27,265 nucleotides of DNA from a virus, in IMG/VR virus record IMGVR_UViG_3300047564_001198, positions 1-27,265 of that record. One strand, written 5' to 3'. The position numbers and the translations under genes were made by a program. Positions 2,577 through 20,546 of the stretch are shown piece after piece. How positions within the stretch are numbered: the first letter of the stretch is position 1; each line of letters begins with the position of its first letter. Under the pieces are notes generated by a model. That model saw only the letters and a list, made by a program, of their open reading frames with translations, made no database searches and was not told where the DNA came from.

Positions 2577-3425
2577 ATGCCTGAAATTACCTTTGACGGA
2601 ACAGATTTAGCAGACGTTGCTTCCCGTGAAGCTGAAGAGGCTCGCCTTCTTGAGCTGGGTAGTAAACTCCAAGCCGAAGAAGAAAGTATCCGTCAAGACA
2701 CTTACGACAAAGCCCGTAAGGACTCCGAGGCCGAGCTAAATTACGCAGGCAAATTTAAGTCTGCTGAAGATCTTGAAAAAGCTTATCTTGAGCTTCAAAA
2801 GAAGTTAGGCCAAAAAGAAGAAACCACCCCAGATGAGGATGAAGATACCTCAGAATGGGATAGTGATGAGGCTTCTGAGGAAGAAGAGGTTCCTGCTAAC
2901 GAAGAGGTTCAGGTCCTGCTTGATGCTTCTGAGGAGTACTACTCCAACAACAAAGAACTTAAGCCTGAGACCCTTCAAAAGCTTAAGGAGCTTCCCTCTG
3001 AAAAGTTAATTGAGGCTTACCTTGAGCTTCAAAAGAACAACACCCTTGCTGCGGGCCAGCCCCTGTCTGACTCTGAGGCTCAGGACATTGTTAAGTCCGT
3101 TGGGGGTCAAGACGCCTACAACGAAACTCTTGCCTGGGCATCGGAAAACCTGAAGCCAGAAGAGGTCGCTGCTTACGACAACGTGGTCAACAGCGGTAAC
3201 AAGGATGCTATCTTCTTTGCTGTTCAGGCCCTCAACCAGCGGTACAAAGATGCTGTTGGATTTGAAGGTAAAACCCTGTCTGGCAAGTCCGTGAAGAATA
3301 GCGTCAAAGGTTTCCGTTCACAAGCCGAACTGGCCCGTGCCATTTCTGATCCTCGTTATCGGACTGACCCGGCCTATCGCTTGGACATTGAACAGAAGCT
3401 GGCTGCCTCTGGAGATCTTCTCTAA
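2577..3425 (+). CDS. capsid assembly scaffolding protein (T7 gp9-like)
   Basis: A 282-residue, strongly acidic protein (T7 gp9 is 307 aa) lying between portal and capsid genes. Residues about 75-110 are almost entirely Glu/Asp/Ser (DEDEDTSEWDSDEASEEEE), and the rest is predicted helical with many Glu/Lys/Leu, as expected for an elongated scaffold. The C terminus, with SDPRYRTDPAYRLDIEQKLA, matches the capsid-binding end typical of podoviral scaffolds. The protein directs procapsid assembly with the portal at one vertex and leaves before packaging. It starts five bases after the preceding gene's stop and is followed by a long untranslated leader for the capsid gene, so capsid expression appears to be set separately. 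Confidence 0.93.
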   Translation: MPEITFDGTDLADVASREAEEARLLELGSKLQAEEESIRQDTYDKARKDSEAELNYAGKFKSAEDLEKAYLELQKKLGQKEETTPDEDEDTSEWDSDEASEEEEVPANEEVQVLLDASEEYYSNNKELKPETLQKLKELPSEKLIEAYLELQKNNTLAAGQPLSDSEAQDIVKSVGGQDAYNETLAWASENLKPEEVAAYDNVVNSGNKDAIFFAVQALNQRYKDAVGFEGKTLSGKSVKNSVKGFRSQAELARAISDPRYRTDPAYRLDIEQKLAASGDLL

Positions 3426-3565
3426 TGTACTGCCCGTGTCCGTGGCTTAAAACGGCACTGGAAAAATAGTCGAATCTCCAGTATTCAACCCTTTATTAAG
3501 AGAGGGGTGGACAGATCGACGGGTATTGGAGTACGCCCTGCTGCTGTTTAGCGCGGGGCATCTTT

Positions 3566-3608
3566 AGGAGAAGCGGGTGCTTACCATGGTTCGAGTCCAT
3601 GGTCTCCT
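3566..3608 (+). ncRNA. tRNA-like acceptor/T-arm minihelix (not a full tRNA)
   Basis: AGGAG (3566-3570) pairs with CTCCT (3604-3608), and ACCATGG (3583-3589) pairs with CCATGGT (3597-3603) around the loop TTCGAGT (3590-3596). That loop, followed by C, is exactly a tRNA T-loop with the G53-C61 closing pair. The two helices total 12 base pairs, the length of a tRNA acceptor plus T stem, with a 12-base bulge (3571-3582) where D and anticodon arms would be. There is no room for a D or anticodon arm, so it is not a decoding tRNA. It could be a remnant of a tRNA, an attP core copied from a host tRNA 3' end, or a processing signal recognised by tRNA enzymes such as RNase P. Confidence 0.5.
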
Positions 3609-3637
3609 CTTGAGGATGGGATAACCTCGTTAAAAAC

Positions 3638-3651
3638 CCAGTCATGACTGG
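3638..3651. repeat. perfect 14-base palindrome in capsid leader
   Basis: CCAGTCATGACTGG is identical to its own reverse complement. It lies 29 bases after the tRNA-like element and directly abuts the next hairpin. A perfect palindrome without a spacer is more typical of a protein-binding site for a symmetric dimer than of an RNA hairpin, but no protein is implicated by sequence. Confidence 0.6.
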
Positions 3652-3652
3652 A

Positions 3653-3683
3653 GTATTGGCCCGGTGCGCTGGATACCCAATAC
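3653..3683 (+). repeat. inverted repeat / hairpin in capsid leader
   Basis: GTATTGG (3653-3659) pairs perfectly with CCAATAC (3677-3683) across a 17-base loop. A second GTATTGG at 3523-3529 could compete for the same partner, giving an alternative long-range pairing that would enclose the tRNA-like element. Confidence 0.5.
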
Positions 3684-3728
3684 AACGGACGTATTTCATA
3701 AAAACCGAATACTTTTTGCGCAACAACT

Positions 3729-3740
3729 CCAACATGTTGG
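3729..3740. repeat. 12-base palindrome close to capsid start
   Basis: CCAACATGTTGG is self-complementary and lies 33 bases upstream of the capsid ATG. A T-run (TTTTTCATT) follows 13 bases later, but the lack of a loop and the gap argue against a terminator. It may be an operator-like site or part of the leader structure. Confidence 0.5.
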
Positions 3741-3773
3741 GAACTGATAAACCTTTTTCATTCCCTTAATCAA

Positions 3774-4772
3774 ATGACTTTTAACGTTACTCAACTCGGC
3801 CAAGTTAATGGCGCGGGTAATACCAAGGCTCTCTACCTGAAGCTGTTTACCGGCGAAGTGTATGAAGCCTTCCGTAACAGCACGATCGCAAAAGGCCTGG
3901 TGATGAACCGGACCCTGCGTGGTGGCAAGGAAGCCCAGTTCATTCACACTGGCCGCATCCAAGCTGGGTACCATGTTCCCGGCACCGCGATCCTTGGTTC
4001 TGGCGACCCTCTGGCCGCTGAGACCACCATCGCAATGGACGACCTGCTGGTTGCCTCTGCGTTCGTTGATAACCTCGACGAAGTGCTGGCCCAATATGAT
4101 ATCCGTGGCCCCATTGCCCGTCAAATCGGTCAGAGCCTGGCTGAGTTCTATGATCGTCGGATCTTCCGCGTTCTGGACCGTGCCTCCTCTGCTACCGCCC
4201 CTGTGACCGGCGAGCCTGGTGGCTTCCAAATCAACCTCGGCGCTGGCAACGAGTATGATGCCCAGGCCCTGGTTGACGGCTTCTTCGAAGCTGCTGCCCG
4301 TCTGGATGAAGTGGCTGCTCCTAAGGATGGTCGTGTGGCCGTGCTGGCTCCTCGTCAGTACTACGCCCTGATCAGCCAGGTGGACACCAACATCCTGAAC
4401 CGTGACTACGGCAACTCTCAGGGTAGCCTGAACAGCGGCGAAGGCCTCTATGAGATCGCTGGTATCTCCATCCGCAAGTCGAACAACATCCCCTTCCTTG
4501 GGAAGTATGGTTCGGCTGCTGGTCCTTCCATCGACGCTGCTGCCGTTCCTGGCGAAAACAACAGCTACGGTGTGGCTGCTAACTTCACCAACAGCTGTGG
4601 CCTGATCTTCCACCGTGATGCCGCTGGTGTCGTGGAAGCTATCGGTCCTTCCGTGCAAACCACTGGTGCTGACACCAAGGTGATCTACCAGGGCGATGTG
4701 GTCGTGGGCCGTCTGGCTTACGGCGCTGGCGCTGTGCGTGTGTCCGTTGCTGGTGCTTTCCGCAACGTTTGA
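3774..4772 (+). CDS. major capsid protein (T7 gp10-like)
   Basis: A 332-residue protein in the gp10 position (T7 gp10A is 345 aa). The N-terminal arm and the segment FIHTGRIQAGYHVPGTAIL, then LVASAFVDNLDEVLAQYDIR and SLAEFYDRRIFRVL, are the conserved E-loop and spine-helix region of the podoviral HK97-fold capsid family. It assembles the icosahedral shell on the scaffold and expands on packaging. Its codon use is visibly tighter and more GC-rich than that of neighbouring genes, consistent with very high expression. It follows the long structured leader and is followed 25 bases later by a strong terminator. There is no obvious slippery stretch near the stop for a gp10B-type extension. Confidence 0.97.
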   Translation: MTFNVTQLGQVNGAGNTKALYLKLFTGEVYEAFRNSTIAKGLVMNRTLRGGKEAQFIHTGRIQAGYHVPGTAILGSGDPLAAETTIAMDDLLVASAFVDNLDEVLAQYDIRGPIARQIGQSLAEFYDRRIFRVLDRASSATAPVTGEPGGFQINLGAGNEYDAQALVDGFFEAAARLDEVAAPKDGRVAVLAPRQYYALISQVDTNILNRDYGNSQGSLNSGEGLYEIAGISIRKSNNIPFLGKYGSAAGPSIDAAAVPGENNSYGVAANFTNSCGLIFHRDAAGVVEAIGPSVQTTGADTKVIYQGDVVVGRLAYGAGAVRVSVAGAFRNV

Positions 4773-19664: not shown

Positions 19665-20546
19665 GTGGTTGTTACCCGCTACACCTCCATGGGCCTCACC
19701 CTTATGTCCGCTTGGGACCAGTTCGTCGCTGAACGGTCCATTTCCCTGTCAGCCACAAGCCTCACGTCCGACTACCGGCAAGCCACAAAATGGTTAAGTC
19801 GCTGCCCCTACCAGAATTTTGAGACCGAGGGTCGCCTGATTCTGACGTGGGTTCTCCAGCAGCAGCCGGTTCAGTCGGCAAGGCGGGTGGCCATGTACCT
19901 CAAGGCCCTCTACCGCTGGGCCAGCCAAGAGGACATTGCTATTATCGCACGCAACCCGATCATGACCTTCCGGATGCCCAAGGCTCCACAGAAGGACGAA
20001 GAAATTGTGGTAATTCCCAGGGACGAGATTGGTCTGGTGATGGTTGCCCTTGAGGCAAAGCAAACCTACCGGTCTACCAACTGGGCCACCTACGCGGAGT
20101 TTATGCTCCAGACTGCTATGAGGACTGGCGAGGTCAGGGCCCTTACTTGGAACGACATTAAGGACGATAAGATCCTGGTCCACAAGAACTTTACCCTGAC
20201 CCACGGCCTTAAAAACAGCACAAAAACGAATAAGAAGCGTTGGGTACCCCTCAATGCGAAGTGCAAAGAGATCCTGGAAACCCTAGATCAGAACGAAGAG
20301 TATCTCTTTCCTTGGGATAGGTCCTCGTTTCAGAGTTACTTTCGCAAAAAGATGGATCGGCTCCGTGCTGCGGACCTGATTACCCACCTCTATCGCCCCT
20401 ACGATCTGCGTCATACAGCAATCAGTCGCTGGATCGAGGCAGGCATTCCTGTTGCTCAGGTTGCATCCTGGGCTGGAAATACGGCAGACGTTATCTGGCG
20501 TCACTATGCCAACACCACTCAAACCTACGAAATTCCTATTCTTTAA
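19665..20546 (+). CDS. int: tyrosine-family site-specific integrase
   Basis: The 293-residue reading starts at GTG 19665; ATG 19689 or 19704 would give shorter forms that fit the possible promoter better. N-terminal residues about 13-100 form a SAM-like core-binding domain. The catalytic domain has Arg153 in MRTGEVRAL, Lys187 in TKTNKKRWVPL, YDLRHT with Arg249 and His250 (the first box-II His is Tyr246, a frequent substitution), Asn272 in place of the usual His/Trp, and nucleophile Tyr281 in RHYA. It should catalyse recombination between attP and a host attB, often a tRNA. Integrases are known in T7-like cyanophages, where lysogeny is rarely shown. Unlike in those, it lies in the late region between fibres and lysis genes. 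Confidence 0.92.
   Translation: MVVTRYTSMGLTLMSAWDQFVAERSISLSATSLTSDYRQATKWLSRCPYQNFETEGRLILTWVLQQQPVQSARRVAMYLKALYRWASQEDIAIIARNPIMTFRMPKAPQKDEEIVVIPRDEIGLVMVALEAKQTYRSTNWATYAEFMLQTAMRTGEVRALTWNDIKDDKILVHKNFTLTHGLKNSTKTNKKRWVPLNAKCKEILETLDQNEEYLFPWDRSSFQSYFRKKMDRLRAADLITHLYRPYDLRHTAISRWIEAGIPVAQVASWAGNTADVIWRHYANTTQTYEIPIL

Follow-up and report, generated by a model that had tools for sequence, protein, structure and literature searches.

The late region of phage T7 carries the phi10 capsid promoter and RNase III hairpins. Very few promoters are used in the cyanophage Syn5, whose RNA polymerase relies on just two, one of them transcribing more than 37 kb (PMC3950665). A different way to form mRNA ends is known from plant mitochondria. 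There, RNase P and RNase Z define mRNA ends by cutting at t-elements, tRNA-like sequences that do not become aminoacylated (PMC11658184). Both enzymes are present in cyanobacteria (PMC10989914), and RNase P positions its cut by a set distance to the elbow of the tRNA (PMC4919913).

The window analyzed here is the complete stretch of 27,265 bases of the virus record IMGVR_UViG_3300047564_001198 (positions 1 to 27,265). Its late genes are of the T7 type, including a T7-type terminase, and the closest named phage by capsid is Synechococcus phage S-CBP2 with 70.7% amino-acid identity. Between the scaffold and the capsid gene lies a leader of 348 nt, and a tRNA-like structure (TLS) is located inside it. 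The features of the window were as follows:

2577-3425, + strand: scaffold (capsid assembly) protein gene (T7 scaffold PF05396)
3566-3608, + strand: TLS without anticodon arm, composed of acceptor, mini D-hairpin and T-arm (sequence, fold, covariance-model match)
3566-3571, + strand: acceptor 5' strand AGGAGA, partner 3603-3608 (sequence)
3572-3582, + strand: mini D-hairpin AGC-GGGT-GCT(T) (fold; the homologous pair covaries in relatives)
3584-3602, + strand: T-arm CCATGG / loop TTCGAGT 3590-3596 / CCATGG (sequence, fold, strict-rule scan)
3603-3609, + strand: acceptor 3' strand TCTCCT and discriminator-like C3609 (sequence)
3610-3628, + strand: conserved TTG anchor and GAGG/CCTC hairpin, 3612-3615/3625-3628 (T-loop spacing; motif recurrence)
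3638-3651, + strand: palindromic hairpin CCAGTCATGACTGG (sequence varies in relatives)
3653-3683, + strand: element B, with stem GTATTGG/CCAATAC, upper hairpin CCGG-TGCG-CTGG and 3' bulge ATAC
3774-4772, + strand: major capsid protein gene (Gp10A-like PF21703)
19665-20546: phage integrase gene (PF00589)

The sequence of positions 3566-3608 reads AGGAGA-AGCGGGTGCTTA-CCATGG-TTCGAGT-CCATGG-TCTCCT. The T-stem is formed by the two CCATGG strands (3584-3589 with 3597-3602) and gives, together with the acceptor, a stack of 12 Watson-Crick pairs carrying the canonical T-loop TTCGAGT. This confirmed from the sequence the original prediction of a 12-pair acceptor/T-arm stack with this loop at the same site; the 12 pairs are identical, even though they had been divided into 5 + 7 and are described here as 6 + 6. 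The 12-base insert at 3572-3583 was found as well, but it is not the plain bulge that had been proposed: it folds as the hairpin AGC-GGGT-GCT, and the GG of its tetraloop sits like G18G19 of tRNA. CCA is not encoded after the acceptor 3' strand. The fold was of modest stability (z -2.2), which is not decisive alone, and when the leader was folded as a whole, the minimum-energy structure kept the T-arm and the mini D-hairpin but slipped the acceptor 3' strand to CTCTTGAGGAT.

Compared with a canonical tRNA, the acceptor and a T-arm with a TTCRANY loop are present in the window, and the anticodon arm with its 7-nt loop is missing, just 12 nt lying between acceptor and T-arm. ARAGORN found no tRNA in the window, and Rfam gave no significant match there, the tRNA model included. 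A tRNA gene in the window was therefore rejected.

Among the known systems, the TLS resembles plant mitochondrial t-elements and tRNA punctuation as a non-translating, often degenerate tRNA-like structure inside a polycistronic transcript (PMC11658184). In contrast to t-elements, it belongs to phage mRNA in cyanobacteria, many of its variants are without an anticodon arm, and the armless type is without direct tRNA-gene homology. Since t-elements are defined by mitochondrial DNA and homology to tRNA genes, an element of a phage record without an exact match in the prokaryotic genomes searched is not a member. It may work like one, with an mRNA end at the TLS. The 12-bp stack with T-loop is shared with the acceptor/T-arm minihelices that serve as minimal RNase P model substrates; unlike these, the TLS is natural and viral, bears the additional GG-containing mini D-hairpin and does not encode CCA. 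As in the tRNA-like domain of tmRNA, a tRNA is mimicked without a normal anticodon arm. The TLSs of TYMV-type plant viruses are situated at the genomic 3' end, whereas the one described here is internal in the mRNA of a DNA phage and has neither an aminoacylation signal nor CCA. T7 belongs to the same family (Autographiviridae), and like its RNase III sites and phi10 promoter the TLS would offer a route to discrete, stable late mRNAs. However, a tRNA mimic would take this place here, and in Syn5 there is no phage promoter near the capsid gene.

A strict scan, which required a T-stem of 5 Watson-Crick pairs, a TTCRANY loop, 5 bp or more in the acceptor and a stack of 12 pairs, returned the window TLS as the sole match on the + strand of the 27 kb. 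With the same scan, neither 300 dinucleotide shuffles of the whole window nor 20,000 of the leader gave a match. Additionally, a covariance model (R1) was trained on Syn5, S-TIP28 and five contigs, seven other phages in all, leaving out the window and its near relatives. R1 detected a single site in the window at 3567-3607 with 34 bits and an E-value of 1.3e-8, which is a rough figure owing to the short calibration. It also matched the capsid slot in Syn5, P60, S-TIP28, S-TIP37, S-CBP3 and many contigs. Based on the R1 match and the position upstream of the capsid gene, the window TLS belongs to a family defined here as the Syn5-type capsid-leader TLS.

Capsid leaders were obtained from 80 capsid relatives in IMG/VR, 103 stretches with the downstream motif, 22 named cyanopodoviruses and a further 130 contigs retrieved by searching with the capsids of P-SSP7 and Syn5. 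If a T-arm combined with an acceptor of 5 or more bp is counted as a TLS, 86 of 179 distinct leaders and 38 of 88 clusters carry one, where clustering of the interrelated metagenome contigs lessens the effect of kinship and does not abolish it. Among the controls, TLSs were counted in 4 of 8800 shuffles, in none of the 179 antisense leaders and in one out of 3567 stretches of 260 nt taken elsewhere in these loci. ARAGORN calls almost none of the capsid-slot TLSs. The carriers include the model phages Syn5, P-SSP7 and P60. The original prediction had correctly placed the structure between scaffold and capsid genes; it is not peculiar to this genome but a clade-wide feature. No published description of a capsid-leader TLS was found in the open-access literature that we searched. 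Neither by eye nor by R1 was a TLS seen in the leaders of Pelagiphage HTVC019P, Roseobacter phage CRP-114 and Prochlorococcus phage P-SCSP1q, and because of this absence the TLS may be restricted to the main cyanopodovirus clade.

Conservation and covariation in relatives, whose absence had been named beforehand as part of what would speak against the element, were both found. The acceptor differs from phage to phage with pairing retained (AGGAGA/TCTCCT, GTGAGG/TCTCGC, GGAATG/CATTCC, GGTAG/CTACC, AACTGA/TCAGTT, GAGTA/TACTC and more), and compensatory change was seen in acceptor, T-stem and mini-D pairs alike. The homologous mini-D pair in 16 relatives was GC (7), UA (5), CG (2) or AU (1). Acceptors of unequal length could not be aligned with MAFFT (alignment A1), hence strands of fixed length were used (alignment A2). 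On these, changes on both sides occurred in 9 of 10 pairs, a count that is partly circular as the strands were picked for pairing. Therefore the swap test and the blind model R1 were added as less circular tests. With the 3' strand placed solely by its distance from the T-loop, 38 of 44 cluster representatives had a 5' strand able to pair with it over 5 bp or more; after swapping the 3' strands among leaders, the mean was 9.4 and the maximum 18 of 44. A tertiary covariation between U55C56 of the T-loop and a GG in the spacer was considered too (43/43 against 40/51; p 8e-4 with every leader counted) and was not pressed, the association being weak after clustering (p 0.03).

The TLS keeps a strict spacing. 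From the outermost pair to the T-loop, 11-12 nt were counted in 73 of 92 relatives (12 pairs in the window). On the other side, a conserved TTG follows the T-loop at 13 nt in 43 and at 14 nt in 38 leaders, together 81 of 94, and most of the remaining leaders carry a one-base variant of TTG in the same place. The distance in the window is 13 nt. This anchor motif was seen in 60 distinct upstream contexts. In tRNA the 13th base from the T-loop is the discriminator, and RNase Z cuts after it; the conserved downstream sequence therefore starts at the would-be 5' end left by RNase Z. The geometry of RNase P and RNase Z substrates, i.e. a coaxial stack of about 12 bp and a fixed distance from the T-loop to the cleavage site, is found in the TLS. 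For the window, a capsid mRNA 5' end is predicted at 3610 after an RNase Z cut at 3609/3610, and by the T-loop ruler RNase P is predicted to cut immediately before 3566 or 3567. Past the predicted cut, a possible H-type pseudoknot was noticed at 3612-3640 (GAGG/CCTC and TGGG/CCCA), with the same layout in S-CBP2 (GTGG/CCAC and CACG/CGTG).

The element occupying the capsid slot ranges from a full tRNA to a core. In phage NATL1A-7 a genuine tRNA-Gly(UCC) was found there (Rfam 70.5 bits). Several contigs carry full-length tRNA-like elements that score 45.3, 38.4, 35.7 and 29.0 bits with the Rfam tRNA model (cut-off 29 bits) and have abnormal anticodon loops, and in one group of relatives the slot element was detected by ARAGORN as tRNA-Asn. 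Syn5, S-TIP28, S-TIP37 and the window possess solely the acceptor, the GG-bearing mini D-hairpin and the T-arm. A three-way form with the T-loop TGCRANN is present in P-SSP7, P-SSP2, P-GSP1, S-CBP3 and S-SBP1. In two of these, P-SSP7 and P-GSP1, the upstream open reading frame runs into the 5' strand of this form. Overall, TGCRANN takes the place of TTCRANN in approximately half of the T-loops.

Most leaders without a TLS are filled by one of two other elements. At least 33 leaders (about one fifth) carry, 11-12 nt before the same TTG anchor, a variable stem whose 15-nt loop hardly changes (CACCTCAGAGTCGGA or something close to it). The carriers include S-CBP1, S-CBP4, 9515-10a, P-SSP10 and others, and the element was located in the capsid leaders L179, L183, L184, L185, L187, L190, L193, L194, L196 and L198. 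This element does not resemble a canonical T-arm. Its loop CACCTCAGAGTCGGA might be a disguised T-loop; the spacing is similar, yet the loop varies at a position that a T-loop requires. The second element, a GGGGAC-TGCAAT-GTCCCC hairpin, was present in 22 leaders. Because some leaders hold slot elements that are not tRNA-like, the function of the slot need not depend on tRNA mimicry.

Based on these data we would rather interpret the capsid-leader TLS as an RNA processing element that mimics the acceptor/T-arm half of a tRNA, a reading to which we assign a probability of roughly two in three. The late genes would be transcribed into a single long polycistronic RNA. The TLS would fold in the nascent transcript, and its fold would be recognized by the host enzymes of tRNA maturation, with RNase P cutting at the 5' end of the TLS (~3565/3566) and/or RNase Z after the discriminator-like base (3609/3610). 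The capsid mRNA released in this way would start with UU, immediately followed by the GAGG/CCTC helix, and a helix so near its terminus should enable it to withstand 5'-end-dependent decay. The upstream scaffold and accessory mRNA would gain its own 3' end through the cut. The structure, its conservation, the compensatory changes, the spacing and the exchange for a real tRNA were observed; the cleavage, the choice between RNase P and RNase Z and the benefit for mRNA stability are inferred.

The genetic setting is in agreement with such a role. The exact Syn5 promoter occurs in the Syn5 genome at 4929 and 44797 only, both far from the capsid gene at 20017. In the window, no match to a Syn5-type promoter was found within three mismatches, and no terminator-like site (G+C-rich hairpin followed by a U run) was found on the + strand of 3300-3900. 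Neither an intrinsic terminator nor a sigma-70 promoter was supported in the window leader. Punctuation by a tRNA mimic is favored because Syn5 has only two promoters, the leader has no recognizable promoter or terminator on the + strand, cyanobacteria have RNase P and RNase Z, the elbow ruler is known and the t-elements provide a precedent. A processing signal was among the readings offered by the original prediction, and as a predicted cleavage site it is now well supported by comparison, namely by the conserved position, the compensatory changes, the tRNA-like spacing, the tRNA of NATL1A-7 and the lack of a phage promoter near the Syn5 capsid gene.

Other explanations have to be weighed against it. 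The TLS could remain uncut and act as a stable block, either an exonuclease barrier or a protein-binding site, that guards or marks the 5' region of the capsid mRNA or the 3' ends of upstream decay intermediates. The non-tRNA-like hairpins in the slot of some relatives are compatible with a pure barrier, and other conserved structures exist in the leader. However, a barrier needs neither a canonical T-loop nor the mini-D GG, the ruler of 11-12 nt or replacement by a complete tRNA, and we consider this explanation unlikely. Regulation of capsid translation or transcription, e.g. via a tRNA-binding protein or the upstream glutamine riboswitch, seems quite improbable: the TLS does lie in the capsid leader and glutamine-II riboswitches are found upstream in P-SSP7, S-RIP2, S-TIP37 and others, but the T-loop is mostly 125-200 nt ahead of the start codon with nothing tying the TLS to the start region, there is no anticodon-like specificity, and the acceptor sequences vary freely.

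The full tRNA-Gly of NATL1A-7 and the relatives whose element is ARAGORN-detectable as tRNA-Asn could also point to a functionless relic of a tRNA gene, or to a decoy or sponge that occupies RNase P, EF-Tu or some other host factor that binds tRNA. Compensatory changes would not persist across divergent phages in a relic, and a decoy, which had been suggested before, does not need a fixed distance to the TTG anchor and fails to account for the fixed position before the capsid gene; we give this pair of ideas very little weight. Finally, a tRNA-derived attachment core (attP) for the integrase at 19665-20546 had been proposed. The window does carry this integrase gene, and related cyanopodoviruses, whose attP sites are tRNA-derived sequences too, integrate into tRNA-Leu (PMC8776855). 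The experimentally tested cyanophage attP is located directly downstream of int and matches the first half of tRNA-Leu, so that both position and sequence match differ from the TLS (PMC8776855). The integrase lies 16 kb from the TLS, a scan of about 85,000 prokaryotic species genomes (a set lacking many hosts) for the 21-nt 3' half of T-arm and acceptor gave no exact hit, and TLS sequences diverge among close relatives with the structure retained. With neither an identical host tRNA segment among the genomes searched nor adjacency to int, the attP proposal is largely refuted, and its probability is close to nil.

Several other RNA elements were found near the slot. In relatives, element B has a variable stem, an upper hairpin often with a UNCG loop and a 3' bulge GGAUAC/GGACAAC; no Rfam match was found for it. 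It is kept in cyanopodoviruses and in the TLS-less HTVC019P, CRP-114 and P-SCSP1q (leaders L180, L192, L332, L333 and L334). An abiF-like RNA (Rfam RF03085) was detected directly upstream of a tRNA-like element in approximately 43 loci outside the window, some from the same contig. Its scores of 30.6-34.1 bits stayed under the gathering score (37), and it showed two differing stem sequences with one conserved loop. In the AbiF defence system, AbiF RNA serves as the antitoxin (PMC12373285), so the phage-borne copy could be a counter-defence mimic. A glutamine-II riboswitch (RF01704, above the gathering score) was present upstream of the tRNA-like slot, and in P-SSP7 and S-TIP37 a small ORF is located between the two. 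The sites were:

L045:2575-2613, L010:1601-1639, L011:1900-1938, L028:3780-3818, L059:4721-4759: abiF-like RNA
L192:938-991, L193:788-842, L191:937-990, L297:695-747, L312:950-1032: glutamine-II riboswitch

Little Shine-Dalgarno sequence was seen beside the capsid start codon in the window (3725-3768) and in the capsid leaders of S-RIP2, S-CBP1, S-CBP2 and S-SBP1. The same five leaders carry a GGGA(A/G)-type sequence approximately 25-35 nt upstream that is able to pair with a (C/T)TCCC-type sequence near the start codon. Further tRNA-like candidates, all on the coding strand, were noticed in the early regions of P-SSP7 (L331, ~603-647 and 1027), where the sites precede the first annotated gene, and of Syn5 (L330, ~2728), at the gp9/gp10 gap.

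If punctuation by a tRNA mimic is true, the host enzymes that trim tRNAs take over 5'-end formation of viral mRNA. We know of no earlier example of tRNA punctuation in phage mRNAs. More broadly, T7-like cyanophages might have swapped local late promoters for viral tRNA punctuation, with mimics that diversify quickly across the clade and range from a full tRNA to a core of about 40 nt, and with further sites in use near 2728 in Syn5 and near 630 and 1027 in P-SSP7, a generalization for which we see about even odds. The series of TLSs would then represent a natural range of how far a tRNA can shrink and still be handled as a tRNA. Cyanopodoviruses are abundant ocean viruses, and for them the capsid TLS would be a concrete and testable answer to how high capsid expression is reached with few promoters.
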